Of a stretch of 52,332 bases of DNA, positions 16,653 through 52,332 are shown one piece after another; position 1 is the stretch's first letter, and the number at the start of each line of letters is the position of its first letter. The position numbers and the translations under genes were made by a program. The stretch lies in the NCBI GenBank assembly GCA_030528355.1, contig JAUMZA010000007.1:1-52332 (forward strand), read 5' to 3'. The DNA comes from Candidatus Saccharimonadota bacterium. Lineage in GTDB: Bacteria; Patescibacteriota; Saccharimonadia; Saccharimonadales; Saccharimonadaceae. Below the pieces are notes generated by a model, which was not told where the DNA came from, made no database searches, and was given only the letters and a program-made list of their open reading frames with translations.

Positions 16653-16667
16653 GACACTCTACTAAAA

Positions 16668-16694: not shown

Positions 16695-16715
16695 CAGGCT
16701 ATCAGCAGAATCTAC

Positions 16716-17528: not shown

Positions 17529-17540
17529 ATCTTTCCCTCC

Positions 17541-18539
17541 TTATTCTGAAAGATTTTTACGTTTAGTATCAGCAATTGCAACAGTACTGCTTAATTCGTC
17601 CATGACAATATATGGTGCATCATTGCGAGCTTCTTTCAGAATTTTACCAATATATTCTGCCAATATAACCATAAACATAAACAACAAGAAGAACATACCA
17701 GAAAGCTGCAATGACATAGTCGTCCAGCCGGCTGCAATATCTTGCTTAAATAATGCCACACAAACAACATAGATGGCATACAGCAGGTTAACCACGCTTG
17801 CCAGTACGCCAATCCACGACATTACCCGTAGCGGCTGCGTTGAGTGGCTAGTCACCACATCTATCGCCTCAAGCACACCTGTCTTTAGACCCCGGCTGCG
17901 AGTAGGGTCTTCTTTGGTTTCATACTCATGCTCTACGCAACTATAGCCAATCTGCCGAATCAAGTGGCGAATATGACCATCATGCCGATTGGTAGTAGCA
18001 ACCGAGCGTACCGCTCGCCGGCTTAGTGCGATAAAATAGGTAGCCGTTGCAGGGATATTTACGCCCAAATGGCGACGATTATACCAATAAAACAGCTGAC
18101 GACCAACACCGGATTGGATCATAGTAGTCTCAGCAACAGCCGCTACACCATTTACAATATCGTATGTCTTATTTTTTTCGACCATGGCAGGAATTTCTGA
18201 AATCGGATCAAGTGATGGATTAACCAGCACAACATAATCACCAATTGCACCCTGAATACCTGCCATCAGGGCCGTGTCGTAACTATATTCACGAGATAAG
18301 CGAATTAAGCGTATACATGGCAATTCGCCAAGCAAAGCCACCACCTTTTGCACAGTAGCACTACTCAGCGCGTTATCTATCACGATAATTTCGTAATTTT
18401 CGTACTTACTTGCAAGCAATTCTGAAAGTTCGGTAATATAAGTGTCGAGTGAGTCATACTCCACCCGCGCCCCTACAACCACCGATACAAAAATATCCTC
18501 ACGCACCGCTTTTTTGCTACTTTGCTTCCTTTTGGCCAT
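17541..18539 (-). CDS. GT2-family protein with two C-terminal membrane helices, altered catalytic motifs
   Basis: A 332-residue protein with the architecture of ArnC/GtrB-type polyprenyl-phosphate glycosyltransferases: a GT-A domain (about 10-230) and two membrane helices (about 232-300). The strands and SREYSYDTALMAGIQGAIGDYV are conserved. The donor motif, usually DDGSTD, reads IDNALSSA, and the metal motif, usually DADLQDP, reads NPSLDP, so two key acids are missing. It may be inactive, metal-independent, or a partner of the intact GT2 just downstream (12 bases away). The start overlaps the end of the FAD-protein gene by 23 bases and has the SD GGGAGG. Confidence 0.82.
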   Translation of the reverse strand: MAKRKQSSKKAVREDIFVSVVVGARVEYDSLDTYITELSELLASKYENYEIIVIDNALSSATVQKVVALLGELPCIRLIRLSREYSYDTALMAGIQGAIGDYVVLVNPSLDPISEIPAMVEKNKTYDIVNGVAAVAETTMIQSGVGRQLFYWYNRRHLGVNIPATATYFIALSRRAVRSVATTNRHDGHIRHLIRQIGYSCVEHEYETKEDPTRSRGLKTGVLEAIDVVTSHSTQPLRVMSWIGVLASVVNLLYAIYVVCVALFKQDIAAGWTTMSLQLSGMFFLLFMFMVILAEYIGKILKEARNDAPYIVMDELSSTVAIADTKRKNLSE

Positions 18540-19656
18540 ATATCCTCCCTAACTCCTCAAATGCGTCGTAAATATTATCTAATTTTCCACCCATAATGCA
18601 CACATAGCCATCATTGCCAAAATCATTTCGAAAGAGAATTGGCCGACTGTCGTCATCCTCACTCTTCACTAGTACTGTCTTTACCTCTACGATTGACTCT
18701 CGATATTTCATGTCTTTCAATGCAGGGATAAACCGTACTACATCATTATACATCTGATTATAGTTTGAATGAAATGGGCGATTTTTTAGATACTCGTGCG
18801 TCTTAATACGCTCCTCGCTCGTATGCTCATCATCAATCCACGATTCATGCGGCGTATACCGCACATGCGACAATGTATATAGCTGCTTTGAAGGAAATGG
18901 CATAATCGAAAAGAATGGACCGTCCATCATAGTAATGCTAAAATCTTTTAATTTTTGCGGCAGCTCGACCAAGCACATTTCCGTAATTTCATGCTTTAAG
19001 CCCACTAGTGGCAAGCCAGAGGCACGATGCAGCGTATTGATATTTGAGTAGGTGCAATTGAGCACAAAGTTACCTGTATGCGTGGCCTTATCTGTAACAA
19101 CCGCAATTTCTCCGCCCTGTGTTTTTGGTAGTTGGATTTTCTGCACTGATTCACCCAGGCTAATAGTAATGCCTTTGTGCTTCTTGATACGCTCGAGTAG
19201 TAAGGTGCGTAGTTTACGAGAATCAAATGCATACTCCTTCACCTTGAACACTTCTTCCACCAGCGAAGGGTTAAACATTGCCTGAATATCCGCTGAGGCC
19301 GGATGCACTTCTGCACCAATTTTTTCACAAAAGCCCTTAAACTGGCGAGCGTTAACTTTTGAAAGGTGCTTGGCAACACCATAATATTTCTCAAAATCAG
19401 CCACCACCGCCGGGCCATATTCGTCAACAAATACCGGAAAGTTCACCGCCGAGCGATAGCCCGTCAGCACACTACGTGGATAGTGGTAGCCATTATGCAC
19501 CCTCGCCTGATTCACATATGATGCCCTATCCATAAGCGATGTTTCTTTTTCGATAATAGTAATGTCATCTACGCCCAGCCGCTCGTACAAGTACAGTGCG
19601 ATACGCAGGCCATAAAAGCCACCGCCGATAATGATCGTCTTATTTGCGTGCACCAC
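18517..19656 (-). CDS. FAD-dependent oxidoreductase (DAO superfamily)
   Basis: A 379-residue flavoprotein. The N-terminal Rossmann motif is IIIGGGFYGLRIALYLYERL, followed by an Asp/Glu-containing strand (ITIIEKE), RVHNGYHYPRS in the family position for substrate contact, and CIMGGKLDNIYDAFEELG at the C-terminus for FAD closure. Related enzymes in glycan clusters oxidise a sugar or a small metabolite, but the substrate cannot be read from sequence. It starts at GTG 19656 or 19653 after AGGAAGGGC and overlaps the upstream membrane protein gene by 17 bases, so it belongs to the same operon. Confidence 0.83.
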   Translation of the reverse strand: MVHANKTIIIGGGFYGLRIALYLYERLGVDDITIIEKETSLMDRASYVNQARVHNGYHYPRSVLTGYRSAVNFPVFVDEYGPAVVADFEKYYGVAKHLSKVNARQFKGFCEKIGAEVHPASADIQAMFNPSLVEEVFKVKEYAFDSRKLRTLLLERIKKHKGITISLGESVQKIQLPKTQGGEIAVVTDKATHTGNFVLNCTYSNINTLHRASGLPLVGLKHEITEMCLVELPQKLKDFSITMMDGPFFSIMPFPSKQLYTLSHVRYTPHESWIDDEHTSEERIKTHEYLKNRPFHSNYNQMYNDVVRFIPALKDMKYRESIVEVKTVLVKSEDDDSRPILFRNDFGNDGYVCIMGGKLDNIYDAFEELGRIYGQKEAK

Positions 19657-37402: not shown

Positions 37403-38776
37403 GTGCACGCACTTTGGCAGAGTGTCTTAGGAGAGATCGAATTATCAGTACCGCACGCCGCATTCGTGACCTGGCTGCGTCCGAGTGAGCTAATTGATGA
37501 TAATGAAGAACACGTTCGCATTGCAGTTCCTAACGTATTTGCGATCAATCAGTTCGAGGCCAAGTATGACACGCAAATTCGCGATATCTTAAAAAAGAAC
37601 GGGGTAAATGCTAAAAAAATTAGCTACGTAGTGAATCGTACTGGCAAGCGCACGGTAGTGAATCGTGAAACAACCCGTCGCACACCCACTAGCAGCCGTG
37701 CCGAGCAGCTCATCGCCCCTAGCCGAGCTGTACCCGCTGCCACATCACACGCATCTACTAAAACTGCCCTTAATCCAAAGTATACTTTTGACACCTTTAT
37801 TGTGGGCTCGAGCAACGACCTTGCCTACACTGCCTGCCAAGCAGCGGCTGCTCATCCCGGTGAAAAATACAATCCGCTCTTTTTATATGGCGGTGTTGGA
37901 CTAGGTAAAACTCACCTAATGCAGGCGGTTGGTAACGAAATTCTCAAGCACAACCCGGACGCTCGTATCCTCTATGCCACCACCGAAGGATTTGTGAAGG
38001 ATTTTCTTGAAAGTATTCGCTTTAAAAAGCAAGGCTTTGCCGATAAGTATCGTAATGTAGATGTGTTGATTGTGGATGACATGCAGTTTATTGCTGGCAA
38101 AGAAAAAACGCAAGAAGAATTCTTCCACACCTTTAACGAGCTGCATCAAAACAACAAGCAAATCATTATTAGTTCTGATAAGCCACCTAAAAGCATCCCA
38201 ACCCTTACCGAGCGTCTGCGTAGCCGCTTTGAATGGGGTATGGCAATTGACATCCAAATGCCAGATTTTGAAACTCGCTGTGCCATTATTGAAGCTAAAG
38301 CAGCCTTAAGTAATGTAGAACTTCGCCGTGAAACGGTTGAATATCTTGCCCAAAACATTAAAACCAATATTCGTGAGCTTGAAGGTGCCTTAAATCAACT
38401 GCTCGCCTACGCCGAAATGCGTGGCGTTGAGCCAGATTTGCAAATTGCAGAAGGACTCATTGGCAATGTTCGACAAACCCGCCCGCAGCACATCACTCCT
38501 AAACAAATTGTTGACAAAACAGCCAAATACTTCCAGCTGCAAGCCAGCGAAATCTGCAGTGCAAAACGTGATAAGCATATTGCCTTGCCACGTCAAATTG
38601 CTATGTACTTACTACGGAGCGAGTTACATCTCAGCTTTCCTAAAATTGCCAGCGAACTTGGGCGTAAAGATCACACGACCGCCATCCACTCTATCAACAA
38701 AATAGAAAAAGCCATCAAGCTCGACTACACCATTCGTGAGCAAGTTGGCGAAATTAAGGAGAAATTGTATGCCTAG
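37403..38776 (+). CDS. dnaA: chromosomal replication initiator DnaA
   Basis: A 457-residue protein with the four DnaA domains. Domain I is about 1-80, a Ser/Thr/Ala-rich linker spans about 85-120, and the AAA+ domain follows with GGVGLGKTHLMQAVGNE (Walker A, about residue 163 on) and VLIVDDMQFIAGKEKTQEEF (Walker B). The C-terminal DNA-binding domain has the signature GRKDHTTAIHSINKI. It binds DnaA boxes and opens the origin. The start is GTG 37403 with AGAGGAG eight bases upstream. The length is normal. Confidence 0.98.
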   Translation: MHALWQSVLGEIELSVPHAAFVTWLRPSELIDDNEEHVRIAVPNVFAINQFEAKYDTQIRDILKKNGVNAKKISYVVNRTGKRTVVNRETTRRTPTSSRAEQLIAPSRAVPAATSHASTKTALNPKYTFDTFIVGSSNDLAYTACQAAAAHPGEKYNPLFLYGGVGLGKTHLMQAVGNEILKHNPDARILYATTEGFVKDFLESIRFKKQGFADKYRNVDVLIVDDMQFIAGKEKTQEEFFHTFNELHQNNKQIIISSDKPPKSIPTLTERLRSRFEWGMAIDIQMPDFETRCAIIEAKAALSNVELRRETVEYLAQNIKTNIRELEGALNQLLAYAEMRGVEPDLQIAEGLIGNVRQTRPQHITPKQIVDKTAKYFQLQASEICSAKRDKHIALPRQIAMYLLRSELHLSFPKIASELGRKDHTTAIHSINKIEKAIKLDYTIREQVGEIKEKLYA

Positions 38777-39040
38777 CTGTGGACAACTTGTGCAGTACCT
38801 GCGAATAGTGCAGGGCAAAATCTGTGAGCGACTTTCCACATTCCCGCACTTCCCTGCTTCACTACACCAAAAGCTTGTGGATGCAATCCTCGATTTACCC
38901 AGTATTGTCCCCGTCTTTTCAGCTACTTCTGCACATGGGCTAGCCACCTACTTACCAGAGGCGTCCGCTCACTTTTCCCCATTATCCACACTGCCTATTA
39001 CTACTCACCACAAGAAAGAAAGTAAGAAAGGATTATAATA
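38777..39040. other. dnaA-dnaN gap with DnaA boxes (right half of origin region)
   Basis: This 264-base gap carries a perfect DnaA box TTATCCACA at 38982-38990, a complementary TTGTCCACA-type site at 38778-38786, and CTTTCCACA at 38832-38840. A frame of 90-100 codons runs through it, but it is probably chance (see the rejected list). The end provides the dnaN ribosome site AAGAAAGGA. In several bacteria the duplex-unwinding region lies here; which side is used cannot be told. Confidence 0.65.
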
Positions 39041-40141
39041 ATGGAACTTTCTGTATTACAAGAACATTTTACAAAAGCACTAGGTGCAGCTAGTCGGGTG
39101 GCATCAAGCCGCACTCAACTACCGATCCTTAATAATATTCTGTTGCGAACAGACGGCAATCGCCTGCTAGTTGCTGCTATGAATATGGAAATTGCCTCGA
39201 TGCAATATGTGGGTGCGAAAATTGCAAAGCCAGGAGCTATTACGGTGCCAGCCCGTCTAATTACCGATTTTGTAAGTAGTTTGCCAAAGGGTCAGATTGA
39301 TATTATGGTCAAAGGTGCCCAGCTACACATCAGTGCAGGCAAATATAAGTCAGTTATTCACGGGGTGGTGGCGGATGAGTTTCCGGAGTTGCCAACGATC
39401 GATGAAGAAGCGGCGATTCAGTATCAGATTACACCGCATGATTTTAAGCAAGCGGTTGGGCAAACAATTATCGCCACCAGTAATGATACCACTCGCCCAA
39501 CACTAACTGGGGTATATTGGCATTCGCACGAAGGCCATCTATATCTGGCTGGCACGGATGGCTATCGCCTGGCTGAGCGACGATTAGTGGCAACCGAAAG
39601 CGAGGTAGCGGCAATTATCCCTACCACTTCCCTGCAGGAGGTGCTTCGTACGATGACGGAAGATACCGAGGAGGTGGTGATTTTGTTTGATGAGTCGCAA
39701 GTGCGGTTTCGTATTGATGATGCAGAAATTACCAGCCAGCTGATTGATGGCAATTTTCCTCCGTATCGGCAGCTAATTCCGCAGTCGAACGAGGTGGCGG
39801 CGCATATCAAAAAAGATGAATTTGTACGTATTACAAAGATTGCCGGATTATTTGCTCGTGATTCTGGCGGGAGTGTCACAATTACAGCTGATGGCGAGGC
39901 GGATACACTTTCGCTACATTCGGTTGCTTCGGAATTGGGTGAAAATACCTCGGAGGCAGCAGCAAAAGTAGAAGGCAGTGGTACTATCACTCTTAACTCT
40001 CGCTATGTAAGTGAGGCGTTGAATGTGATTGATGCCGCTGAAGTGCAATTCAGTTTTAGTGGCAAGCTAGCCCCAACCGTACTGCAGGCAGATGATGCTA
40101 AGGCGGATTATAAACATATCATCATGCCACTTAAGAGCTAA
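39041..40141 (+). CDS. dnaN: DNA polymerase III beta subunit (sliding clamp)
   Basis: A 366-residue protein with the usual three-domain clamp pattern: LSRTQLPILNNILLRT-type segment near residue 23 (SSRTQLPILNNILLR), TRPTLTGVYWH near 150, LAGTDGYRLAERR near 170 and DGNFPPYRQLIP near 240. It forms a ring round DNA and tethers the polymerase. It begins after AAAGGA and its stop is one base before recF. Confidence 0.97.
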   Translation: MELSVLQEHFTKALGAASRVASSRTQLPILNNILLRTDGNRLLVAAMNMEIASMQYVGAKIAKPGAITVPARLITDFVSSLPKGQIDIMVKGAQLHISAGKYKSVIHGVVADEFPELPTIDEEAAIQYQITPHDFKQAVGQTIIATSNDTTRPTLTGVYWHSHEGHLYLAGTDGYRLAERRLVATESEVAAIIPTTSLQEVLRTMTEDTEEVVILFDESQVRFRIDDAEITSQLIDGNFPPYRQLIPQSNEVAAHIKKDEFVRITKIAGLFARDSGGSVTITADGEADTLSLHSVASELGENTSEAAAKVEGSGTITLNSRYVSEALNVIDAAEVQFSFSGKLAPTVLQADDAKADYKHIIMPLKS

Positions 40142-40142
40142 T

Positions 40143-41183
40143 ATGGATATCACCCGTCTAAAAGTGCAGTTTTTACGCACGCACGCCTGCGAGGAGCGTG
40201 CCATTACTGCTCGTGTGACGGTAATCGTGGGAAAAAATGGCAGCGGAAAAACCACCCTACTGGAGGCACTGCACATTGCATTGCGAGGCACCTCGTTTCG
40301 TGGCAGTGATGCAGAGGTGTTGCAGCATCAACAGCCTTGGTGGCGAGTGGACATGGCGACAAGTGATGGTATGCGATCGGTGGCATGTGATATGTCAACT
40401 GGTACCGCCAAAAAGAAAATTATGGTAGATGATCGCCAGTTTTTGCGAATGCCACACAGCAAAAAGTTCCCCGTGGTTGTATTTGAGCCTGACGACCTGC
40501 GATTGCTGCATGGTTCGCCATCACGCCGCCGGACGTTTATTGACACGTTTATTGGCCATATTAACCCCCTGTATGGTACGATAGTGCGTAAATATGAACG
40601 AGCTCTGAAGCAGCGTAATGCTCTGCTGAAGCAGCCTGGCATTACTCGTGATGATATGTTTGCATGGGATATGGCGCTAGCTGAATACGGTGCGGATATT
40701 ATTACTCAGCGAATTCAAGTGATTGAACGTATCAACCAGTCACTCACCGATACCTATCGTAGCATTGCTGGTACGGATGACACAGTGCAGCTGCACTACT
40801 CGCATACGCTGATTGATTCTGTTCAGCAAAAACTCGTCAATGAACTGCACGCCTCGTTTGCCCGTGATGTATTACTGGGATTTACCTCGGTAGGGCCACA
40901 TCGGCACGATGTGCTGTGTACGTTTAATGGGCAGCCATCCGCAAAAGTTGCATCACGTGGCGAGGTGCGATCAATTATTTTGGCACTAAAGTTTATCGAG
41001 GTAGATATCACCAGTGATACAACCGGAGTAAGCCCGGTGATTTTACTCGATGATGTATTTGCCGAGCTTGATGAAACCCGGCAGCGTCGTTTGGCAGAAA
41101 AATGCCGACATAATCAAATGTTTATCACCAGTACCAATGCCTATACTGGTATCGATACCCGTTCGGTTATTCGCCTAGATTAA
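40143..41183 (+). CDS. recF: DNA replication and repair protein RecF
   Basis: A 346-residue SMC-like ATPase. TVIVGKNGSGKTTLLEALHI is Walker A, FVTS/VGPHRHD (here TSVGPHRHDV) and SRGEVRSIILALKFIE form the signature region, and VILLDDVFAELDETRQRRL holds Walker B. It loads RecA at gapped DNA. A longer frame begins at 40092 inside dnaN; ATG 40143 is preferred as it gives the standard N-terminus MDITRLKVQFLRTH. It overlaps the converging gene at 41167 by 17 bases. Confidence 0.96.
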   Translation: MDITRLKVQFLRTHACEERAITARVTVIVGKNGSGKTTLLEALHIALRGTSFRGSDAEVLQHQQPWWRVDMATSDGMRSVACDMSTGTAKKKIMVDDRQFLRMPHSKKFPVVVFEPDDLRLLHGSPSRRRTFIDTFIGHINPLYGTIVRKYERALKQRNALLKQPGITRDDMFAWDMALAEYGADIITQRIQVIERINQSLTDTYRSIAGTDDTVQLHYSHTLIDSVQQKLVNELHASFARDVLLGFTSVGPHRHDVLCTFNGQPSAKVASRGEVRSIILALKFIEVDITSDTTGVSPVILLDDVFAELDETRQRRLAEKCRHNQMFITSTNAYTGIDTRSVIRLD

Positions 41184-41781
41184 TGGCTCGCAGAATATCA
41201 ATTGGGATATCTGGATAGTGCGGTGCCGATAGTACTGGCACGGGCGGGGTTGAACGCACCTGCCAGGTGTTACCTTGCTTTTGCAGGAGGATATGTAGCG
41301 TGTCTCGCTGATCGGAGGTGGTGTCGATAAAGCGTAAAGTCGCGCCGTAAATATCTCCCTTACCGTACAATGCCTCGTGATGGATGGTGTAGAGCGTCGG
41401 CAGAGTCGGATAGGTATCAGTAATAGTGCGGTCGATAGCATCCTTTTCTTCGGCAAGCAGGGCTTGTAAACGGGTGGTGGTTAATGAAAAGTGAACAGGA
41501 ATAGTGCGGCTGGTATCGATAGTGAGTTCTTGTGCTGTGGCTGCAAAGCCATCGCCGCCAGTTGCAAGCGTGTAGGTACCCTTCTTTAATTTTGTAGGAG
41601 TGTTAGGGGTGATGTGCTGAGTATTGCCTTGCGGGTGGATAAGTCGTGCACTGCCTTGTGGTGTGTCAAAGGTGAAGGTGACAGTTGCAAACGAGTTGAC
41701 CTGGCTCCAGATTTGCCACACGATTGCTATAATTGCGAGTATTCCCGCAAGGCCAACTAATAGCCAATGAATTCTTTGCAT
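41167..41781 (-). CDS. membrane-anchored PEGA-like protein
   Basis: A 204-residue protein with one N-terminal helix (about 6-26, LLVGLAGILAIIAIVWQIW) and an outer domain. Residues about 32-80 have a PEGA-like beta repeat: TPTKLKKGTYTLATGGDGF matches the K-x-G-x-Y-x-L-x-x-x-x-x-GF pattern. The C-terminal part (95-204) has an IDRTITDTYPTLPTLYTI segment and is not recognised. It is the last gene of the block starting at 46555. ATG 41781 is preferred over GTG 41784 because the AGGAGG spacing is better. Its start overlaps the stop of the similar protein upstream (TGATG). Confidence 0.72.
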   Translation of the reverse strand: MQRIHWLLVGLAGILAIIAIVWQIWSQVNSFATVTFTFDTPQGSARLIHPQGNTQHITPNTPTKLKKGTYTLATGGDGFAATAQELTIDTSRTIPVHFSLTTTRLQALLAEEKDAIDRTITDTYPTLPTLYTIHHEALYGKGDIYGATLRFIDTTSDQRDTLHILLQKQGNTWQVRSTPPVPVLSAPHYPDIPIDILRAINLGE

Positions 41782-42437
41782 CACTGCCTCCTCTCTTCTA
41801 GCGGATTGGCAAATCCGCTAAATTCAATTGCATATTCGGTTGGATCAAACCCTTTTTTACGTAACTGCGATAACGCAAACATGCGGTAGCGTGGTGACGT
41901 GCCTTTGATACTAAGGGTGATGCTTTCATCGGGGTTGTGACGGTAGCTAATGGTGTAGTACGGATCTTTAATAGGTAAAGATTTGACGATTGGCCAGCGT
42001 TCTTGAAACTTTTCACCATAAGCTTGTGCCTCCCGAAAGCCAATACGTTCAAGCTCGGCATATTGTGTACGATGTTGATTGTACCAGCGCTTGGCTTCAT
42101 CTGATTGCGGAGCGAGCCCAATGTACTGGCGTGGTACATGGTTTTGGTGGGCATAAAAGGTGTTAGTGGTGGTGGCAAAGCCCGGGGCTGAGACGGTAAT
42201 TGTATGAGTGCCTGGGGTGACGTAGCGAGTGCCTGGTTTTACGGGTGTGTTATCGATGGTGATAGTTGCATGGCCAGGCACGGCTTTTACTTGCACTGGC
42301 AATTTACCGCGCTGTTCGTCTTGTTGTTGCTGCCATATGCTAAAGCCAATAAAGCTCATCACTCCTATTATGCACATCCCCCAGCCAAGTAGGTGCCATT
42401 TATATTTTTTGAAGTAATAAATTGGGTCGTAGGTCAT
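41781..42437 (-). CDS. membrane-anchored PEGA-domain protein
   Basis: A 218-residue protein. One helix at about 14-34 (LLGWGMCIIGVMSFIGFSI) is followed by a PEGA domain (about 45-95): VPGHATITIDNTPVKPGTRY then VTPGTHTITVSAPGFATTTN. The C-terminal 115 residues, with YAELERIGFREAQAYGEKF and DPYYTISYRH, resemble in outline the matching part of the next protein, so the two genes look like diverged duplicates. PEGA domains occur on bacterial surface proteins. It has AGGAG ahead of its ATG, 9 bases after the lysozyme-like gene. Confidence 0.8.
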   Translation of the reverse strand: MTYDPIYYFKKYKWHLLGWGMCIIGVMSFIGFSIWQQQQDEQRGKLPVQVKAVPGHATITIDNTPVKPGTRYVTPGTHTITVSAPGFATTTNTFYAHQNHVPRQYIGLAPQSDEAKRWYNQHRTQYAELERIGFREAQAYGEKFQERWPIVKSLPIKDPYYTISYRHNPDESITLSIKGTSPRYRMFALSQLRKKGFDPTEYAIEFSGFANPLEERRQ

Positions 42438-42446
42438 ACCTTACTC

Positions 42447-43682
42447 CTATTTTTTACGATACCAATTAAATCCTGGTTGGGTCGGCTGTTGGCGGGTGTC
42501 GGCCATGGGGGCACGTTCATCAAGCGAGGCGGAGGCAATCTTTGCTTCAAAACCTGGCACCTCACCTACGTAGATAAAGGTGTGCTGTGCATTGACTGCA
42601 ACATCGCCGGGCTGTAGGCTACTTGGGTCGATACTGCTGCTTGGGCCGAGGGTTTGCCAGTTCTCCTTCATCCACTGCTCTTGAATAGGTGTGTAGCCGC
42701 CCTTGCCGTCGTAATTGTACCCTTTATCGAAGCCGCTGTCGCGCACCAGTAGTGTGACAAATCCGCCGCAATCAATCCCCGGATGTGCGATACCGCCAAT
42801 ATACAACCCCTGTGCCTTGGCGGCCTTATAAGCTTCGGTGTATTCGGGGCGAGCTTCTATAGTAAGCCCTTTCCATTCACTCCAAGCGTAATGTTTTAGC
42901 GTTTCGTTAAAGTTGCCACCACTAAAGCCGCTGCCACTACACTCTTTGCGTTTTTGGGTGCTTGGCGGTTTTTGGCTGTTGTCTGGGTTGTCACCATCGG
43001 GTGAGCCGCCTGGATTTTGTAATGCGTCATCGGCCGATTCACCAGCTAGTGCATCGGCATCTTTATATTTATCGTAGACTTCTTGTGCGTTTTTGCCACG
43101 AGTAGCTCGCACCTGTGCGGCGGATTGAGCGGAAACTTCATATTCATTATGAACGATAATAGCTGCCTCAACCGGGTCGTCGGTGGCACGTAGTTTATTA
43201 AGTGTTGGTAGCCATTTGCCGTTAAGCTCCTCCCATACGAAACTCAACTGCCCGCCAAGATCAGTGATTGGCACACCAAGGCCTTGAATATGAGCAACTA
43301 ATGGCTTTTGCCGAGCATCAAAGGTCCATTGCACCAACCCGAATCCAACGCCGTTTTCCGGCACATAGTCCTCTCCTACTAGCTGGCCACCTTCACGAAT
43401 ATTAGGCTGCAAGCGAGATTCAACCATCATATTACCAACAATACCGGCTGCCTGTGCAAGCGAGAGGCCTTTACGCATAAAGAAGTTGAGGATTTTTTGC
43501 TCGTTATCATCGCCGGCCAGCTGCATGGATTCGCCAGATGTGCCTGGTTTGCACTCATCATCATAAAAAAGGATATCATTGCCGATGAAGAAGCGAGGGT
43601 CGGTGATAGCTTGCACGGGCGAAATAAACGTTGCACTAGCCAGTAGTGCGGCGAACAGTAGATGGCGTAGTTTATGCTTCAT
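42447..43682 (-). CDS. secreted two-domain peptidoglycan hydrolase (phage-tail lysozyme plus NlpC/P60-like)
   Basis: A 411-residue exported protein. Signal peptide about 1-25 (ending PVQAIT). Next is the motif NDILFYDDEC (about 35-44), also found in the protein at 48196. Residues about 58-200 match the phage tail lysozyme domain: LNFFMRKGLSLAQAAGIVGN then MMVESRLQPN with the likely catalytic Glu, and GFGLVQWT. After a Pro/Asp/Ser linker, residues about 255-405 form an NlpC/P60- or CHAP-like domain with HPGIDCGGFVTLLVRDSGF (Cys) and GDVAVNAQHTFIYVG (His). It would cut both glycan and peptide. Its ATG overlaps the stop of the large M23 protein gene (TAATG). Confidence 0.85.
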   Translation of the reverse strand: MKHKLRHLLFAALLASATFISPVQAITDPRFFIGNDILFYDDECKPGTSGESMQLAGDDNEQKILNFFMRKGLSLAQAAGIVGNMMVESRLQPNIREGGQLVGEDYVPENGVGFGLVQWTFDARQKPLVAHIQGLGVPITDLGGQLSFVWEELNGKWLPTLNKLRATDDPVEAAIIVHNEYEVSAQSAAQVRATRGKNAQEVYDKYKDADALAGESADDALQNPGGSPDGDNPDNSQKPPSTQKRKECSGSGFSGGNFNETLKHYAWSEWKGLTIEARPEYTEAYKAAKAQGLYIGGIAHPGIDCGGFVTLLVRDSGFDKGYNYDGKGGYTPIQEQWMKENWQTLGPSSSIDPSSLQPGDVAVNAQHTFIYVGEVPGFEAKIASASLDERAPMADTRQQPTQPGFNWYRKK

Positions 43683-46555
43683 TATACTCCACCTCCGTGT
43701 GAGGCTCGAATAATCGGCGCAGGGTCAATCGCCGAGCCACCACCAAAATTACGATGTCCGCCATCCCAAATTTCAAAATGTAAGTGCGGGCCGGTGCTCT
43801 GCCCGTTATTGCCAATTTTACCAATCTCCTGCCCCGCCTTCACGCTGTCGCCGAGCTTTGCAAATACGCCATCATCAAACATGTGGCCATATACGCTGTC
43901 GTAGCGTTTGCCGTCAACTTCGTGCTGAATCACAATCCAGTTGCCAAATCCGCTGGCTGGCCCCGAGGCAATCACCTTACCATCACGGGCGGCAAAAATC
44001 GGCTTATTTAAGGCAGAGCCAGGTTGTGCAATGTCAAGGCCATTGTGCGGCTGGCCGCCACGCATACCAAACGGGCTAGTTACAATGCCGTCTTTGGTGG
44101 TGGGATATGCCCAGCCATCGGCACTTACTTCGCCCTGTTGTCCGCTACCAAAGCCTTCGCTGTCGGTGCCGTCAAGTCCTGGAGTGTCACCGTCAAGTGT
44201 GTCGTTCCAGGTTTTGCTGACAGTGTATTTTGCGTAACGCCAATTCTTTTCAAAGTTTTCTGGGGCGGCACAGGCGTAGCCATTATCAGGACTTTCTTCT
44301 GGGTTTTCATGAGCACCAGGCTCTTGATTGACGCAATCTTCAAGGAATTTTTTATAATTCCACTCCTGCTCGTTATCTTTTGGCTCGCCCGTGTCCGATT
44401 CGGGGTCGATTTCGCCATTAGCGGCCATCCACTCCGCCACCTCTACTGGGTCGGCATCCATCGCTTCTTTTGGTAGACCAAATAATAGATTGCAGCTACT
44501 ATCAGCGGCGACATTCATTTCTTTGTAGGTTTCATCATTACACTGTTGATAGCGTTCTGGCTTAATTTTGGCTGATTGGAGTGCATGGGCCGATGGTAAT
44601 ATTGCCTGCCCGGTTTGTGCAAATAGGGTTGGCAGGGCGGCAATTATTCGCACTCCGTCGGTATGCTGCAGGGTGTGATGAACCGGTAGCAATTGACGGC
44701 CAAGCGAGCCAATAAATGAAAACCGATTATGTACATTGAATGGCTCATGGCTAGCCAAACGACGCTCATCGGCCTCGTAGGCTACCTCTACCTGGCGGTT
44801 GGCGTTCTGGTATTCTACCATTTTTTCTGGCGATAGCGGAATCATGCCTTGTTGCCGGGCAACGCCATTAAACATGCCCGATGCCCCCACGCCAATTGCA
44901 TTGACTGCATCAACGCCAGCCAGCTCTGGCCCGGTAACACGGCCAGCAACAATATCACCCAGCTGTGAAATAAGATACGGCATCGCAAATGCTAATGCAG
45001 CCGAGCCAGCAATGCTGATGGCGGTGCTCGTACCAAAACTACCCAATCCTACCAAAATACCAACCACAAGCGAGCCACCCCGTACGACTGGATTTTGAAT
45101 AATGCCGCAACGCTCAGTTAATTCTTTTGGGCTATTGGTGCCAAGGAGCGAGGCAATTGTTTGATTCACCGAATCAAGCGTACCGGTTAAGCCGCCGCCA
45201 GCCATAAAACGTTGCGAGCTAATATCAAGACGAGGCACATCCTGATAGGCGGATTGCTTATAAAAAGCGGCATCTAGCCCAGATTTGCGGTAGTTGGGAT
45301 TGGTAATCATCGGTAGTGTATCGCTTGAAGATAACATGCTAAGTTTGCGTTCATCAGCTACCTTTTCACGTAAGTCAACTTCGGTAATTTTTTTGCTGAG
45401 ATATTCAACCTGCTCGGGTGTGGCATCGTCTTTCTTCATGGCACTGTAGGTGTTGGCAAAAATCATAAAATAACGAATTGTTTCCGCTTTGCGGGCGACT
45501 TTAGCAGCAAAGCTGACCGCTCGACTAGCATTATAGACACTACAGGCGGTGTCGGCGGCACCGGTAATCAATACGCCTTTGCTGATGTTTTTGACAACAC
45601 TGCTAGAAGTCGGTGCGGCGGTGATTTTTGCCTCAGTGTCTTTGATAGCTGCTGCTTCTTCTGGAGTGTAAAGTTTGCCATCTTCATCAACCATCTTGCC
45701 AGTTTCGTTGCCATTCTCGTCTTTGTGCGGGGTGAGATTTTTTGAGCCAAGCTGCAGTTTTGAGCTAGTGGCTTTTTCTAGTTCGCCATCAAGTTCTTTG
45801 GGGGTCTTGCCGGTAAGCTTTTTGGCGTAGTTAGTTTTAATTTTTGCAAGAAACTTCATGGTTGGCCCATTTTTGAGTGTTAAAAATTTAGGGCTACGAG
45901 CATTAATGACGGCCGTCCGAAAATGAGGATGCTCACGCATACGAGCGGTAAATTCTTCGGCACTGTTAATGGTCACGACATCACCCGGTTTAAGGGGGTT
46001 TTTGTAGGTCATTTTTGTAATGCGACCCCTCCCCTTACCAAAGCCTTCGTTGGCATCAAACTCAACCTCAATCCCCATGGTTTTGTAGGCCGAGCGAGTC
46101 TTTTCGATATTAACCGTCTTAAAGCGGCAGGCAATCTTTACTTTGCCACACGATCCGGCGGTAGTTTGTTTTAACTTTGTACGCATCAGCTGCATATGGG
46201 TGCGATCCATGCCAGCCAGTGAGCTATTAAGATCCTTCGTGAAGGTTTCTACTAATTGCGATAAGGCAAAGCCTGGTGCGAGGATGGTATACAGCAGCGA
46301 ACCCCCGCCAATAAGGGTGATAATGCCAGCGATAAGCGGCCCCTTTTTACCCAGATGGCGAGCCGTAATTCGCTGCAAAAAAGGCTTTTTGGCTGCAGCC
46401 GGTGTGGTAGTAGTGGCGGTGTCTTCGGCGGTGCGAAGTGCTTCGGTGGTGGCGACGGCTTGTGGGGCGGTAGCGACTTTTTCAGCCTGCGAGAGATGAG
46501 CCGCCCGAGGGGCAGCTGATATCCCAAACAACTTCTCTTCACCAGAAGCACGCAT
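43682..46555 (-). CDS. large polytopic membrane protein with C-terminal M23 peptidase
   Basis: A 957-residue protein. The N-terminal 75 residues are Ala/Thr-rich and cytoplasmic, a helix lies at about 85-110 (GPLIAGIITLIGGGSLLYTI), and a long mixed region follows. A hydrophobic segment at about 490-540 (GGSLVVGILVGLGSFGTSTA and beyond) recalls VirB6/TrbL-like proteins of type IV secretion. The C-terminus (about 815-957) is a complete M23 endopeptidase: SPFGMRGGQPHNGLD with H837 and D841, YGHM, and GPHLHFE (924-926). Its middle third is clearly related to the protein at 49696. It leads the operon with the lysozyme-like and PEGA genes. TATAAT lies 9 bases before its ATG. Confidence 0.85.
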   Translation of the reverse strand: MRASGEEKLFGISAAPRAAHLSQAEKVATAPQAVATTEALRTAEDTATTTTPAAAKKPFLQRITARHLGKKGPLIAGIITLIGGGSLLYTILAPGFALSQLVETFTKDLNSSLAGMDRTHMQLMRTKLKQTTAGSCGKVKIACRFKTVNIEKTRSAYKTMGIEVEFDANEGFGKGRGRITKMTYKNPLKPGDVVTINSAEEFTARMREHPHFRTAVINARSPKFLTLKNGPTMKFLAKIKTNYAKKLTGKTPKELDGELEKATSSKLQLGSKNLTPHKDENGNETGKMVDEDGKLYTPEEAAAIKDTEAKITAAPTSSSVVKNISKGVLITGAADTACSVYNASRAVSFAAKVARKAETIRYFMIFANTYSAMKKDDATPEQVEYLSKKITEVDLREKVADERKLSMLSSSDTLPMITNPNYRKSGLDAAFYKQSAYQDVPRLDISSQRFMAGGGLTGTLDSVNQTIASLLGTNSPKELTERCGIIQNPVVRGGSLVVGILVGLGSFGTSTAISIAGSAALAFAMPYLISQLGDIVAGRVTGPELAGVDAVNAIGVGASGMFNGVARQQGMIPLSPEKMVEYQNANRQVEVAYEADERRLASHEPFNVHNRFSFIGSLGRQLLPVHHTLQHTDGVRIIAALPTLFAQTGQAILPSAHALQSAKIKPERYQQCNDETYKEMNVAADSSCNLLFGLPKEAMDADPVEVAEWMAANGEIDPESDTGEPKDNEQEWNYKKFLEDCVNQEPGAHENPEESPDNGYACAAPENFEKNWRYAKYTVSKTWNDTLDGDTPGLDGTDSEGFGSGQQGEVSADGWAYPTTKDGIVTSPFGMRGGQPHNGLDIAQPGSALNKPIFAARDGKVIASGPASGFGNWIVIQHEVDGKRYDSVYGHMFDDGVFAKLGDSVKAGQEIGKIGNNGQSTGPHLHFEIWDGGHRNFGGGSAIDPAPIIRASHGGGV

Positions 46556-46564
46556 TATCTTTTT

Positions 46565-46593
46565 ATTATAACATAAAAATGGTTTTAGAACAA
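46565..46593 (-). promoter_or_regulatory. promoter of the M23 membrane protein operon
   Basis: On the minus strand TTGTTC (plus 46588-46593) and TATAAT (plus 46565-46570) have a 17-base spacer. The -10 ends 9 bases before the ATG at 46555. No Shine-Dalgarno is visible. Confidence 0.65.
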
Positions 46594-46612
46594 GATTACT
46601 ACCCTGTCAACA

Positions 46613-48199
46613 CTACCGATCGGTCAGAATTTCTATCTGCGAAAAAGCTTCATCCGATACAATACGTTTTAGACGCTTTTTTACGTCATCAAGGGCTCGT
46701 GCTTTTTCAACCGTATCAACAATCAGCTTGCCAGTCTGCTTATCTGATATAACGGGAGTGTTTAGCCGTAGGAAGATGGTGTTGCCTTGGTAATCTACCT
46801 CGCTAATAAAGCGAGAATTTTCGAGTGATAACACCTCTTCTGGTAGCAATGGCACTTCTTGTTGTGTGGTGTAGAAGTAGTTGGTTTTATTGAATTTATT
46901 GCCATATTTTTTATTATTAAGCATAGAGAGTAGCGGCTGGTCATTTAGTGTACGCAAACTTGAAAGTGTCATTGCTCCATCCATACCTAATACTGCTTGC
47001 GAAGCATCACCGTTAGGCAGTAGCTTGTAAAGGGTATTATCGGCGATGGCGTATAATGTTTTACCAGCGGCGACGGCAGTTGTGGTTCGCAGAATGAGTC
47101 GCAGCTTGCCGTTTTCTTGCACTTCTACAATGTCACCATTACTGAGCTGCAAATATATCTTATTGCCTGGCAATCGATAAATGTGGTTAGCATACAGGTT
47201 AGCTGGTAGTGCAAGCTTTTTATTTTGGTCATCACCTTCAAGCGAGAAGCTGTACACATATGAATGGCGTCGTTGGTAGGCATGATTTTTTTGTGCATCG
47301 GGGTTTTCAAGATAGGTGGAGCTTTTCCCGATATAGCAGCTAGCTTGCCTATCAAGAAGACTGCAAAAAATGGCATCTTGTGTGCTGTAGTACTCTTCAG
47401 GGAGGGTGATCTGCTTTGAAGATTCTGGACTATCAACATTAAATACAAGTAGCGAATTGCTTTTAGTGAAAGAAAGCAATACTTCCCCGTCCTGTTTAGT
47501 TGTATCGACAGTCAGTGAAATCAACTGTGAATTCTTTGGTACGAATTTTTCAGGAATCCGAATGGTATGTTGTGTTTGCTTTTTAATATCAACATAAGAA
47601 AGGCTAGCAATGCCTCTGATACCTTTTGGTGGCAGCCAGATGCCAAGTAATCCATCACGATATGGCACTAGATTACTCATGCCTGCCAGGCTGATCTTCT
47701 TAATCATGGTAGGATTCCACAATGGATCATCTACGGTATTATGGGTGAAGATTCGCTTAGGATTGAGACAATTATACGAATGGAATGTCTCATCTAGTAA
47801 TACCGGGCAGTTTTGCGAGCTTGTGAGTAGCTTTTTTTCTTTTTGCTGTGCTTCCACGCCCGCTTCAACCGATTGTACAAGGCTGTAAATCGGGATATGC
47901 TGCTCGGCAACAACAGTAGCACCTTTCTTGGTTTTAATCTCAAAAAACGACACATTGCGGCTTACTAAATTAATTCCCTCGTGTAGTTCAACGGGGCGGG
48001 TTTTTTGCGTAGTAGTATCGTAGCCGGCGATTACGAGCCCCTGCTTATCCTTCGTAACAACGGTAATGTCAACTAGCTTGTAATTAATCCATAGTAGTAG
48101 TAAAACAAGCAGGACAACAAAGGTAATTACCAGCTTGTAGTGTCGCCCTAATTGTCGCAAGAAACGCAGTAGTGGTTCGGTGAAAGATTCATATATCAT
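46613..48199 (-). CDS. single-pass membrane protein with large extracytoplasmic domain, unknown function
   Basis: A 528-residue protein. One helix at about 20-42 (LVITFVVLLVLLLLWINYKL) follows a basic cytoplasmic start. The outer 480 residues are beta-rich, with repeating segments such as NGDIVEVQENGKLRLILRTT and AGKTLYAIADNTLYKLLPNG. These look like blades of a beta-propeller, a common scaffold for protein contacts. Not recognised as a known family. ATG 48199 is chosen over 48217 because AAGGAG stands eight bases before it and it overlaps the upstream stop (ATGA). It probably works with the transglycosylase-M23 protein made from the same message. Confidence 0.72.
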   Translation of the reverse strand: MIYESFTEPLLRFLRQLGRHYKLVITFVVLLVLLLLWINYKLVDITVVTKDKQGLVIAGYDTTTQKTRPVELHEGINLVSRNVSFFEIKTKKGATVVAEQHIPIYSLVQSVEAGVEAQQKEKKLLTSSQNCPVLLDETFHSYNCLNPKRIFTHNTVDDPLWNPTMIKKISLAGMSNLVPYRDGLLGIWLPPKGIRGIASLSYVDIKKQTQHTIRIPEKFVPKNSQLISLTVDTTKQDGEVLLSFTKSNSLLVFNVDSPESSKQITLPEEYYSTQDAIFCSLLDRQASCYIGKSSTYLENPDAQKNHAYQRRHSYVYSFSLEGDDQNKKLALPANLYANHIYRLPGNKIYLQLSNGDIVEVQENGKLRLILRTTTAVAAGKTLYAIADNTLYKLLPNGDASQAVLGMDGAMTLSSLRTLNDQPLLSMLNNKKYGNKFNKTNYFYTTQQEVPLLPEEVLSLENSRFISEVDYQGNTIFLRLNTPVISDKQTGKLIVDTVEKARALDDVKKRLKRIVSDEAFSQIEILTDR

Positions 48200-49659
48200 T
48201 CTGGTAACTCCTTCCAAAGACTATCCATAAGTGGTACAAAACTTGTGTCACGTGCACCAAGCACGCCGCCACCTCGACCTTTCGGCGAGCCTCTATCAAT
48301 GTGGAGGTGGCTCGGGGTGCTGTCAGCACACTCGGTAGGGCCAACTTCGCCAAGCTTGTCGCCCGCCTTCACTTTTTGACCTGACTGCACGGTAGGGTTT
48401 GTCATGTGTCCGTACCAATATCCCCAGCCATCATCACCAGTAAAGACAATGTCAATACAGTGCGAGTAGCCGTTGCGGTTGCTAATATTGGTAATGGTGC
48501 CATCGTAAATAGCAAATACAGCAGTACCAACGGAAGAGTTGGTCCCCCATTCTTTATTAGATAGGTCGAAGGCTGGGCTGCCATCGTGATGGTAGCAGAA
48601 GGTGTCTGACTTACAAGGGAATGATTGAGCGCTTGGTGATACGTCGTGTTTAGGAAGGCCAATTGGGAAGGCGTAGCCATCGGCGTTAACATTGGCCGAG
48701 CTGGAGCTTTTGCCGCCACTGCAGGCAGCTGCACCTGAATCACTAGTTACACCAATGTCGCTCGCAGTACCGCCTTCGGCTCCGGGGCCTCGAGTGGTGG
48801 CATCTATCACCTTATAGCCGTCATTGATATCAATTGACTCTCGAAAGCCGCTTGCAATTAGCCAGTACCCCATGCGAATATAGTCTGAGTTCTCTTTAAT
48901 CCATCCTTCAGGGTTTGGGTCGACTTTTGGCAGGTCATTGATGGGCATATTGTCTGGTGCTGCCGTACCGTTATAGCTAGCCACAAACGATATGGTATTC
49001 TTCCTATTTCTAAGGAAGATGGTTTTTTCATAGTCCTCTTTTATATTACCAGTGGCGTTATCAAGAATTGGCAGGCCTGCAGAGTTAGGGCTATGCTTAA
49101 ATGCGGCATGAACAGCATCTTTAGGGTTTTTAGGGTCTTTAATGCCATCACCGTCACCATCCTCGCCTAGTGCATCCCAGGTCGAGGGAATGAATTGCCA
49201 AAAGCCAAGTGCAGCGGCCTTGGAGAGTGTATCATTACTGTCGGCATACTTTGGCCAGCCACGGTTTTCTACCCATAGTGTGGCGGCTACAATGCGGCGG
49301 TCTGAATCTGGGTGCTTTTCGGCAGCGTTATTGATAAGTGTACGCCACGGTTCTGGTACGGTTGATGGCAGTGGCTCATCGGAGCTGCCGGCTGATGAAC
49401 TGGCGGCAGTGCCGCCGCTCACGCACTCTTCGTAATAAAGAATATTATTGCTAGCATAATCAAACGGCAGCTTGGCTTTTTTGCTGTTGTTTTTCTCGCC
49501 GTCCTTCTCTTCCTCGCCTTCTTTTTTCTCGGCTTCTTTAGCGGAGGTATCTTTGGTAGGTTTTTCTTGCGCAGCAGCTGGTATTGGTGAGCACACTAGC
49601 ATACAGACACTTGCAATAATGATGAACGATTTAATTAGCTGATACATATTCCTACCCAT
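48196..49659 (-). CDS. secreted lytic transglycosylase plus M23 peptidase
   Basis: A 487-residue exported protein. Signal peptide about 1-30 (IIIASVCMLVCSPIPAAAQE), then a Lys/Glu-rich stretch, and then NNILYYEEC (about 72-80), the motif shared with the protein at 42447. A transglycosylase-like domain follows (about 105-260; IVAATLWVENRGWPKYA with the Glu, then ALGFWQFIPSTWDALG). A C-terminal M23 domain (about 330-487) has HHDGSPAFD, YWYGHM and SHLHID, so all zinc ligands are present. TATAGT (plus 49667-49672) is 7 bases before ATG 49659; ATG 49647 is another possible start. Confidence 0.88.
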   Translation of the reverse strand: MGRNMYQLIKSFIIIASVCMLVCSPIPAAAQEKPTKDTSAKEAEKKEGEEEKDGEKNNSKKAKLPFDYASNNILYYEECVSGGTAASSSAGSSDEPLPSTVPEPWRTLINNAAEKHPDSDRRIVAATLWVENRGWPKYADSNDTLSKAAALGFWQFIPSTWDALGEDGDGDGIKDPKNPKDAVHAAFKHSPNSAGLPILDNATGNIKEDYEKTIFLRNRKNTISFVASYNGTAAPDNMPINDLPKVDPNPEGWIKENSDYIRMGYWLIASGFRESIDINDGYKVIDATTRGPGAEGGTASDIGVTSDSGAAACSGGKSSSSANVNADGYAFPIGLPKHDVSPSAQSFPCKSDTFCYHHDGSPAFDLSNKEWGTNSSVGTAVFAIYDGTITNISNRNGYSHCIDIVFTGDDGWGYWYGHMTNPTVQSGQKVKAGDKLGEVGPTECADSTPSHLHIDRGSPKGRGGGVLGARDTSFVPLMDSLWKELPE

Positions 49660-49695
49660 ATTACTTACTATATTACCAAAACTATACCACCCGCA

Positions 49696-52332
49696 CTAGC
49701 CGCCGCTCATTACCCCGATATGAAGGTGATTACAGGCATCGGTTACAAGTTTTGAATTTGGCACTGCACCTGCATTTAGTCCTGGAATGCCGCAGTTTGA
49801 TTGTCCTAATTCTAACTTCATGCCAGATTTGCCAGCCACGCCGTCAAGGAATTGGTAAAATTCAAAGTGGATTTGGCTAAATGGTGCATATGGAGAACTG
49901 CCCTCGCCCACCATACGCTGGAAATCTTCGCCTGGGCGTGAGACACCGTTAATATCAAGTGCCTTACCCTGCGGGTGGAAGCCGCCATCACAGTTGTGGC
50001 CAGCAGCCTGGGCACCAATTGTAAACTTAAAGTGTTTTGAGGCTTCTACAAACATGCCAAGCATTTTACCAGACATTGCAACCGGTGCACCAGAACAGCC
50101 AGCGTTGGTTGGGGTTTGGGTACCGTCGGCGGCGGTTTGCTCCATGTAGGTACGCTGTACAGGAATTTGGAAGTTGACATTAGGGCTATCGAGCAGCATT
50201 TGGGCGGCTTTTTTAGCATCATCAGTACCAACCGCATTTGCTTCGCTACAGTTCATGTCTACCTTTGGTACCCAGTCGTAATTGGTTGGGTGGACGTTGT
50301 CGCTACCGGCATCAAACCCGCCTGTAAAGGTAACGTTTGGATATTTTTCAGCCTCCTGCTTGAGCCAGTCGTTTAATTCTTTACCAGTTTTGCCGCCAAT
50401 ATTAAACTGGTTAGCTATGCCAAACAGGGTGATACTAACCCCTTCTTGCCCTGCCAATGTACTAATAGTTTTACTGGCGTGCTCGGTATCGTTTACGTCA
50501 TTAGATAAGCCAGTTGAAAGGTAAATGTGTGTACCGCCTTCAAAGGTTTTTGATTGAATGCTTTCGTAGATTTTCTTTGGATTTCTACCGACCTCTGTAA
50601 GCCCATCATCAAGCCCCGCTTGCTTGGCGTAGCCATTGGCGATAGAATCACCAACCACTTCTTCTGATTTAATTTCACACTCTACCGCCTTTTCTTCTAC
50701 TTCTTCCATGTCGTCGTGAATACGATTATCCATTGTGTAAGCAGAAAGCATGGCGAGCATTTCGGCATCGGTGTTAATATGGCTGTTTGGATTAGTGCAG
50801 TTAAAGCCAGACTGCCAGTCGTGCATCTCCCATTCTTCTAATAGTGTTTCACCTTCTGCATCGCTAGCTTCTCTATCTTCGGTGTAATCTTCTGGCTGAC
50901 TGCCGTTATTTGGAGCAACCGCTTCAGTGCTTTCTAATGAATTAGTAATAGCGCCATCTTCGCTACCGCCCGGATCAAGCTCACCCGGCGGCAAGGTGCG
51001 GCTTACGCAGAATTTATTAAAGCTGCGGAGGATTTTTCCGTTATCAGTTGTGAGAATACTACCATCATCCTTACTGATAAATTCCTTATCTTCCATATAT
51101 TTGATAAGATCGGCCGAATCAACGGTTAATCCTCTGGCGGCCATATGAGTGTACGGCACGCAGAATGGATCGCCTGCAAAATCGTCGGTTAGGATTGGGT
51201 CTGGACACTTGGCTTCACGATCATCGAACGGTGGCAAGGTGTGGAATATGCCACTAAGGGCACTAGCCTTATGATTGGCATTGGCCAGTTGTCGGGTGGC
51301 GGCCGGGATGGTTGCAAGCGAGGTGCCCAGTAGCTTGATAGGGTTGGCGCCACGGTAGTCGATGCCGGATTGGTGCATTGCTAGTGCGAGCGAACCAAGG
51401 AATGAATATTGGTTAGTTACATCTAGCGGGGTACCCTTGGCGTCAAATTTATGAGCGGCAATGTATTCGCTATATTCCTCGTTGGTGTTGCTGAGATATT
51501 GTCGGTAGCCGTTGATATCTGTTGCTACGAGGCCGCTCGACATAGCACTGTTTTGCAGCAGTAGGCCGGCTCCGGTTGCAAGTGCGTTACCGGCATCAAA
51601 GCCAGAGGTAGATTCATCAAGCGACATTTCGGCAGCCCATTCAGCAACTTTTTGTACCACTTTTTCGAGTATGCCGCCAACAATGTAATCAATTAAGTAG
51701 CCTAATGCGTAAATAATCGCTCCACAAATACCAGCACCGGCCGCTGCACCAATCAAGTTACCAATGACTGGTACTACAGAGCCAGCAGCAGTGAGAGGAC
51801 TACCAACCGTTGACCAACAGCGGGCAAAATCTCCAATTGATCCGCCGGCATCCATTGCCTTACATAGCTCGGTTAGCACCAACTCTCCTGTCTTACGAGC
51901 CGAGGTGGTTGAGCGGCCGGTTAGGTAGGCAAGCATGTCATTAATTTTATACTCGTATAGCGATGAGCCAACCGCTTCTTCGATTTTGACAATAATATCA
52001 TTCACATCACCAATCTTGCCGCCACCCACAACATATCGCTGAGCGTATTCACTGAGATTGCGAATATCACCGTGCAGCAACATGCGCATGCCTTCAGCGT
52101 CGGCAAAGGTGGTGTTATAAAAGCGGTTTGGCTTGCCGTCGGCATCTTTTTCATTATGTTCGCTATAGTTGAGGCGATTGCCGATATAGTTGGCGATTTC
52201 TGGGGTTGATTCGGTGGCTAGGGCGCGATCAAACTCGGTCAAAAATGCCATGGCAAAGCGTACAAGATTAAGGATTTGGATTGTTTTTGCTGCCGCCATG
52301 GTTGCCTTGGTGCCGTGATCGGCGGCACATAC
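49696..52332 (-). CDS. large membrane protein with SGNH and M15-like domains, 5' end outside the window
   Basis: At least 878 residues are visible; the frame stays open through the right edge (VCAADHGTKAT before the first Met). Comparison with the 957-residue relative suggests about 330 residues, including an N-terminal helix, lie beyond it. A hydrophobic segment (near 51650-51800; PVIGNLIGAAAGAGICGAII) matches the relative's membrane core. An SGNH hydrolase-like domain follows, with GDSIANGY (near 50650) and DNVHPTNY (near 50290). The C-terminus is M15-like: FHPQGKALDI (near 49960) and CNHLHIGV (near 49725), the H-x(6)-D and H-x-H zinc ligands of VanY-type or L-Ala-D-Glu peptidases. Confidence 0.85.
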   Translation of the reverse strand, partial: VCAADHGTKATMAAAKTIQILNLVRFAMAFLTEFDRALATESTPEIANYIGNRLNYSEHNEKDADGKPNRFYNTTFADAEGMRMLLHGDIRNLSEYAQRYVVGGGKIGDVNDIIVKIEEAVGSSLYEYKINDMLAYLTGRSTTSARKTGELVLTELCKAMDAGGSIGDFARCWSTVGSPLTAAGSVVPVIGNLIGAAAGAGICGAIIYALGYLIDYIVGGILEKVVQKVAEWAAEMSLDESTSGFDAGNALATGAGLLLQNSAMSSGLVATDINGYRQYLSNTNEEYSEYIAAHKFDAKGTPLDVTNQYSFLGSLALAMHQSGIDYRGANPIKLLGTSLATIPAATRQLANANHKASALSGIFHTLPPFDDREAKCPDPILTDDFAGDPFCVPYTHMAARGLTVDSADLIKYMEDKEFISKDDGSILTTDNGKILRSFNKFCVSRTLPPGELDPGGSEDGAITNSLESTEAVAPNNGSQPEDYTEDREASDAEGETLLEEWEMHDWQSGFNCTNPNSHINTDAEMLAMLSAYTMDNRIHDDMEEVEEKAVECEIKSEEVVGDSIANGYAKQAGLDDGLTEVGRNPKKIYESIQSKTFEGGTHIYLSTGLSNDVNDTEHASKTISTLAGQEGVSITLFGIANQFNIGGKTGKELNDWLKQEAEKYPNVTFTGGFDAGSDNVHPTNYDWVPKVDMNCSEANAVGTDDAKKAAQMLLDSPNVNFQIPVQRTYMEQTAADGTQTPTNAGCSGAPVAMSGKMLGMFVEASKHFKFTIGAQAAGHNCDGGFHPQGKALDINGVSRPGEDFQRMVGEGSSPYAPFSQIHFEFYQFLDGVAGKSGMKLELGQSNCGIPGLNAGAVPNSKLVTDACNHLHIGVMSGG

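Follow-up and report, generated by a model that had tools for sequence, protein, structure and literature searches.

A candidate wall-cutting gene module beside a chromosomal type IV secretion system in a Saccharibacterium

Seven leftward genes and their enzyme domains

The window analyzed here is a 52,332-nucleotide stretch of DNA from Candidatus Saccharimonadota bacterium, which makes up the entire contig C12 (JAUMZA010000007.1) of a genome of 835 kb in 21 contigs, 96.6% complete (GCA_030528355.1). The list of open reading frames (ORFs) contained seven consecutive leftward ORFs at 41167-52332, reaching from the contig end to recF, which were named in order of transcription W7, W6, W5, W4, W3, W2, and W1 and encode a set of putative peptidoglycan hydrolases and membrane-anchored proteins (Table 1). 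The gaps between them, from W7 to W1, were 36, about -4, 57, -1, 9, and -4 bases. The predicted gene spacing is that of a single operon, and the run of seven leftward genes described in the initial annotation of the window was thus confirmed. A scan for promoters and terminators gave sites no more numerous than in shuffled sequences. The last-listed ORF, W7, is cut by the contig end, and for W5 the most probable start is the ATG at 48199, preceded by GGAAGGAG, in place of the TTG of the ORF list.

The Pfam search detected Phage_lysozyme2 in W3 (E 3e-31), M23 domains at the C-terminus of W4 and in W6 (E 8e-25 and 7e-15), and SLT in W6 (E 4e-6), all above the cut-off. The NlpC/P60 part of W3 was below it (0.013), yet its Cys and His were present. 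W7 had no Pfam match. It carried SGNH motifs (GDS, GLSND, DxxHP) with a weak PHROG match (7e-9), and M15-type motifs (HPxGxAxD, as HPQGKALD, and HLH) in a part 55% identical to a relative; sequence search of these two parts against PDB found nothing. Thus, of the wall- and ester-acting domains listed in the initial annotation, the lysozyme, both M23, and SLT domains passed Pfam, NlpC/P60 fell short of the cut-off, and the SGNH and M15-like assignments rest on motifs, the weak PHROG match, and the 55% identity. The motif check found the active-site residues present in all seven enzyme domains, including H/D, YGH, and HLH in the M23 domain of W4. When the whole 835 kb genome was searched for M23, SLT, NlpC/P60, and Phage_lysozyme2, every match lay in this 11 kb, and the concentration of hydrolases here is therefore not due to chance.

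W4 and W7, previously taken as polytopic, are not: in the hydropathy analysis each had a single clear membrane segment at the N-terminus, plus a short hydrophobic run around residue 500. W1 and W2 had both been regarded as PEGA-like anchors; this held for W2 (E 9.5e-5, above the cut-off, with 13 of the 13 members of its alignment matching PEGA), while W1 gave no significant match to PEGA (0.16).

Table 1. Positions of the genes discussed (window coordinates unless a contig is named)
Feature	Position	Strand	Description
W7	49696..52332	-	Truncated at contig end; second W4-family protein; C-terminal SGNH-hydrolase-like and M15-like domains
W6	48196..49659	-	Sec signal, motif YASNNILYYEEC, transglycosylase SLT and M23, catalytic residues present
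W5	46613..48199	-	Single-pass; large extracytoplasmic part, fold not recognised
W4	43682..46555	-	Cytosolic tail and single membrane helix; extracytoplasmic core rich in Cys; C-terminal M23
W3	42447..43682	-	Sec signal, motif FFIGNDILFYDDEC, Phage_lysozyme2 and NlpC/P60-like
W2	41781..42437	-	Membrane helix at the N-terminus, then PEGA and a conserved C-terminal domain
W1	41167..41784	-	Membrane helix at the N-terminus, then a conserved extracytoplasmic domain; final gene of the run, convergent with recF
dnaA-dnaN-recF	37403..41183	+	Origin region; flank conserved in relatives
W7, N-terminal 318 residues	C5:2-955 (L076)		W4/W7-family fragment leaving contig
VirB4 ATPase	C5:965-2800	leftward	PF19044 E 9e-30, PF12846 E 1e-11
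TrsD-like (VirB4 N-terminal-like)	C5:2800-3801	leftward	NF041427 E 1.2e-6, below curated cut-off; position as published
PrgI/VirB3	C5:3812-4723	leftward	PF12666 E 1.4e-14; adjoins the VirB4 and TrsD-like genes
VirB6/TrbL-like	C5:7611-10286	leftward	PF04610 E 1.8e-4, below cut-off
VirB6-like	C7:17395-19629		PF04610 E 2e-7, above cut-off

Secretion genes across the contig end and the W4 family

A search of the same genome with the VirB4 of a relative detected an 83% identical gene at C5:980-2800. The genes on contig C5 run leftward to its end in the order of two VirB6-like genes, PrgI, TrsD-like, VirB4, and a 318-residue fragment of the W4/W7 family. Further along C5 there is a row of small membrane proteins, and the two that were scanned both match T4SS_pilin. 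The single-contig relative G035 possesses one protein of 1059 residues, which matches the C5 fragment over residues 124-326 and W7 from residue 361 onward. This alignment joins the two pieces, and we thus infer that C5 and C12 flank a single assembly gap of approximately 33 residues inside W7. The listed W7 start at 52299 is an artefact, as the N-terminal 318 residues lie on C5. The assignment of the seven genes to a type IV secretion system (T4SS), suspected in the initial annotation, was therefore borne out, with VirB4, TrsD-like, PrgI, and VirB6-like genes directly upstream across the gap. The placement of this VirB4 in the clade of the Patescibacteria systems is suggested by its identity and location.

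The proposed search for secretion genes beyond the contig end succeeded for VirB4. VirD4-like coupling proteins are encoded on contigs C14, C19, and C21, with none on C5 or in the window; VirD4 away from VirB4 is usual for the Patescibacteria T4SS clade and is not disqualifying (PMC12102498). No VirB8-like gene was found. The profiles of W1 and W2, which are tentative VirB8 candidates, gave only insignificant PDB matches of that kind, and the W4 core had no fold match in PDB. VirB10/TrbI was likewise not detected in this genome. A second T4SS is present on C14 (L077, C14:10001-30000), where VirB6-like (by size and hydropathy), PrgI-like, VirB4-like, and VirD4-like genes stand together at 11309-18850 next to a probable DNA methyltransferase gene, read by eye at 10195-11250. 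Its VirB4-like protein is 38% identical to the relative's VirB4 of the main system.

The cores of W4 and W7 had been compared with VirB6, but neither is of the VirB6/TrbL type. PF04610 matched neither these two proteins nor any of 25 members of their family, and the count of hydrophobic segments was one to four, fewer than the five or more expected of that type. The true VirB6-like genes are separate and lie upstream, the two on C5 having eight to nine such segments.

Profile searches detected the W4 family in 93 of the 121 genomes of the source family, as well as in two further families within the order Saccharimonadales, and found none in the remaining genomes of a 192-genome sample of the phylum; as far as these profiles tell, the family is confined to Saccharimonadales. 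Eight cysteines varied little or not at all among the W4, W7, and C7 paralogues. The model of the W4 core (predicted local distance difference test score, pLDDT, 77.5; predicted template modeling score, pTM, 0.79) was of good confidence, yet it gave no fold match in PDB or BFVD. Among the 25 family members, the C-terminal enzyme was M23 in 18, VanY in two, and NlpC/P60 in one, and no consistent Pfam match was found beyond it. A third paralogue of this genome (L016:14689-19629, on C7) has no hydrolase domain and directly follows a separate VirB6-like gene; C7 had no VirB4 match.

Conserved order, doubled modules, and exchanged enzymes

The order of the genes was compared in 29 relatives with the region, which were picked for having a W4 match, a choice that biases the presence of the family but leaves adjacency unbiased. 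In all 29, the gene directly after VirB4 was a W4-family gene in contiguous order, demonstrating the conserved synteny that had been set beforehand as a check. It was followed by a secreted W3-like hydrolase and then usually by one or two short single-pass proteins. Next came dnaA-dnaN, mostly with recF, in 27 relatives, the other two being cut short. The median identities to the window were 84% for VirB4, 66% for dnaN, 33% for W3, and 26% for W4.

Two W4-family genes were located at the locus in eight genomes, namely the window and seven relatives, and G078 and G047 carried the four-gene unit W4-W3-W2-W1 twice in tandem. Given these tandem units and paired genes, the set of the window (W7 W6 W5 and W4 W3 W2 W1) is best read as a doubled module. 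In the tree of the cores, the downstream copies (W4) formed one clade (100/100), whereas the copies proximal to VirB4 (W7) did not. A single early duplication giving every W7 copy is therefore not supported, and the second copy appears from this tree to have a history more complex than one duplication.

The enzymes at equivalent positions in the relatives included GH3, GDSL, beta-lactamase-like, Amidase_3, glucosaminidase, C39-like, Exo_endo_phos, VanY, and others. A protein at the W6 position in G112 (L050:2547-5384) combines GDSL, beta-lactamase-like, and SLT domains. W4-family proteins of approximately 1510-1520 residues in G017 (L067:6323-10894) and G110 (L083:5856-10385) contain two Exo_endo_phos domains before M23; these nuclease/phosphodiesterase-type domains might represent a cargo not directed to the wall, possibly an extracellular nuclease.

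The secreted hydrolases of the locus share the motif FYSGNDILFYDP...C (FYSGNDILFY[DN]P..C type) right after the signal peptide. The strict pattern occurred in 20 of 33 secreted hydrolases and in none of the 623 other ORFs of these loci, compared with 0.02 expected from shuffles; as the pattern was written after viewing the set, these numbers are descriptive. Among the 866 predicted genes of the source genome, only W3 and W6 carried it. Because the motif precedes catalytic domains as different as lysozyme, GH3, and SLT with M23, it is evidently kept while the enzymes change. These comparisons showed that W4 and W7 are predicted membrane-anchored carriers with exchangeable C-terminal hydrolases, and W3 and W6 predicted Sec-signal hydrolases with a locus-specific motif.

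Proposed function and comparison with known systems

We propose, with a probability of about 0.62, that the seven genes form the outer wall-cutting module of a chromosomal MPF_FATA-type T4SS of this Saccharibacterium, a muralytic module of the VirB1/PrgK type, split and diversified, that would open peptidoglycan at the meeting point of secretion system and host. W4 and W7 would be bound to the T4SS within the membrane, with their enzymes held outside; W3 and W6 would be exported by Sec and kept at the W4/W7 site through the shared motif, and W1, W2, and W5 may be further outward-facing anchors. At host contact, the enzymes would cut glycan strands, peptide crosslinks, and perhaps esters, and the local opening of the wall would let the T4SS or its pilus pass. 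In its action the module would resemble the VirB1/PrgK hydrolase known from Gram-positive conjugation systems, though with its parts split over several proteins and diversified. A device that opens the wall of a partner is plausible, and the odds that the host wall is the main target are about even.

Several points weigh against this proposal. No other M23, SLT, NlpC, or lysozyme genes were detected in the genome, so the enzymes could also serve the cell's own growth, and essentiality is compatible with host-wall as well as own-growth use. Only one of the three PrgK domains is active, so intact motifs are no proof of activity (PMC11323569). That W4/W7 present enzymes and that the motif serves for docking is inferred, enzyme activity and localization are predicted from the genes, and the choice of relatives limits what the presence of the family can tell.

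The most serious alternative, although it has only a modest chance of being correct, is that ordinary VirB1-type enzymes make holes in the epibiont's own peptidoglycan for assembly of the T4SS and its pilus without acting on the host wall. This is the textbook role of VirB1 and PrgK, and it agrees with the tethering of W4 and W7 by N-terminal membrane helices and with the lack of further M23, SLT, NlpC, or lysozyme genes. However, the number and variety of the enzymes exceed those of other T4SSs, and genera differ in cargo even though VirB4 is 77-93% identical across the 29 relatives. The modules are also duplicated. A fixed own wall would have no obvious need of such features, although this is an argument rather than a test. 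The variety and turnover of the cargo favor the host wall as a target, but clearance of the own wall is also compatible with them.

Genes for general wall remodeling in growth and division might merely adjoin the T4SS, as the only M23/SLT/NlpC/lysozyme matches of the genome are those found here. This is improbable in view of the order with VirB4 conserved in every relative, the third W4 paralogue beside another VirB6-like gene, the fast divergence of the module, and a W4 family not found outside the order in the phylum sample, whereas wall growth is universal. It is more improbable still that the T4SS delivers the hydrolases into the host envelope as its substrates, as their variable cargo and position beside a T4SS might suggest and as genes of the TM7x T4SS region were called putative effectors (PMC10768705), since such substrates need neither the Sec-type N-termini of W3/W6 nor the membrane anchor of W4/W7, and the fixed place of the W4 family directly behind VirB4 is what would be expected of a part of the machine.

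The wall-cutting module offers a concrete and testable answer to how Saccharibacteria pass the actinobacterial host wall, consisting of an enzyme set, a carrier specific to the order, and a short motif in common. Host range could come to be predicted from genomes by the cargo differences between genera, and the W4 core may fill the role played elsewhere by VirB8. More tentatively, the W4 family might be a structural part of the T4SS in Saccharimonadales that has so far gone unrecognized and has a new fold. It would then form a disulfide-rich stalk outside the cytoplasm, seated on the VirB4/VirB6 machine, which bears interchangeable wall-cutting heads and docks further hydrolases via the shared N-terminal motif, its cargo being exchanged to match the host cell wall.

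Phage wall-penetration proteins, such as phi29 gp13 with lysozyme and M23 and the phage-tail lysozymes, carry the same classes of enzyme on the tip of a device for injection. A PDB search with the M23 part had phi29 morphogenesis protein 1 (3csq) among its matches. Unlike in these phage systems, the operon here has no virion genes and the W4 core no BFVD match. A phage origin of the W4 M23 domain was rejected, as the best phage match (50% identity) was lower than the 52-60% of actinobacterial proteins.

These actinobacterial proteins (L008-L015), with M23, transglycosylase-like, and mostly NlpC/P60 domains, were the closest relatives of the W4 M23 domain among the matches listed, at 58-60% identity in Rhodococcus and 52-54% in Nocardia. 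They have several hydrolases per secreted protein and no W4-type core. VirB4-like ATPases were detected near two of the Nocardia loci, and the proteins are likely hydrolases of actinobacterial conjugative elements. As cultivated Saccharibacteria are known to have actinobacterial hosts (PMC10633639), there may have been exchange with these hosts or with conjugative elements that they carry.

The secretion system itself is already known. A Patescibacteria T4SS beside dnaA has been published and is essential in Southlakia epibionticum for epibiotic growth (PMC10633639, PMC12102498, PMC12857230), as are the peptidase and lysozyme homologues downstream of virB4; VirB8 is mostly missing in these systems (PMC12102498). 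The chromosomal systems described (SEML1_0006-0019 of S. epibionticum; TM7x; Quinonero-Coronel 2025, Wang 2023) share VirB4, TrsD, PrgI, VirB6, and VirB2-like pilins with the present one, and likewise lie by dnaA, where virB4 is directly followed by hydrolases. In the freely readable main texts of the papers found, there was no description of the W4 core family or its fold, of hydrolase domain exchange, of the motif in common, or of the duplicated module, and the W4 carrier protein seems undescribed. The earlier statement that no description of the exact set was known applies to the W4 family, cargo exchange, and motif, and not to the T4SS by dnaA or the essential peptidase and lysozyme genes (PMC10633639, PMC12102498).

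A close counterpart is PrgK of pCF10, as are Gram-positive VirB1-type hydrolases in general. PrgK is a membrane-anchored extracytoplasmic hydrolase of an MPF_FATA T4SS that holds in one protein a degenerate M23, a muramidase most similar in fold to phage tail lysozymes, and CHAP (PMC11323569). W3 and W4 together contain the same three classes (M23, phage-tail-lysozyme-like muramidase, and CHAP/NlpC), and the simplest interpretation is a PrgK-type module that has been split and amplified. Unlike PrgK, the present system has its domains split over W3, W4, W6, and W7 rather than joined in one anchored polypeptide, with intact M23 motifs, a large Cys-rich core of its own, and further enzyme classes in the relatives.

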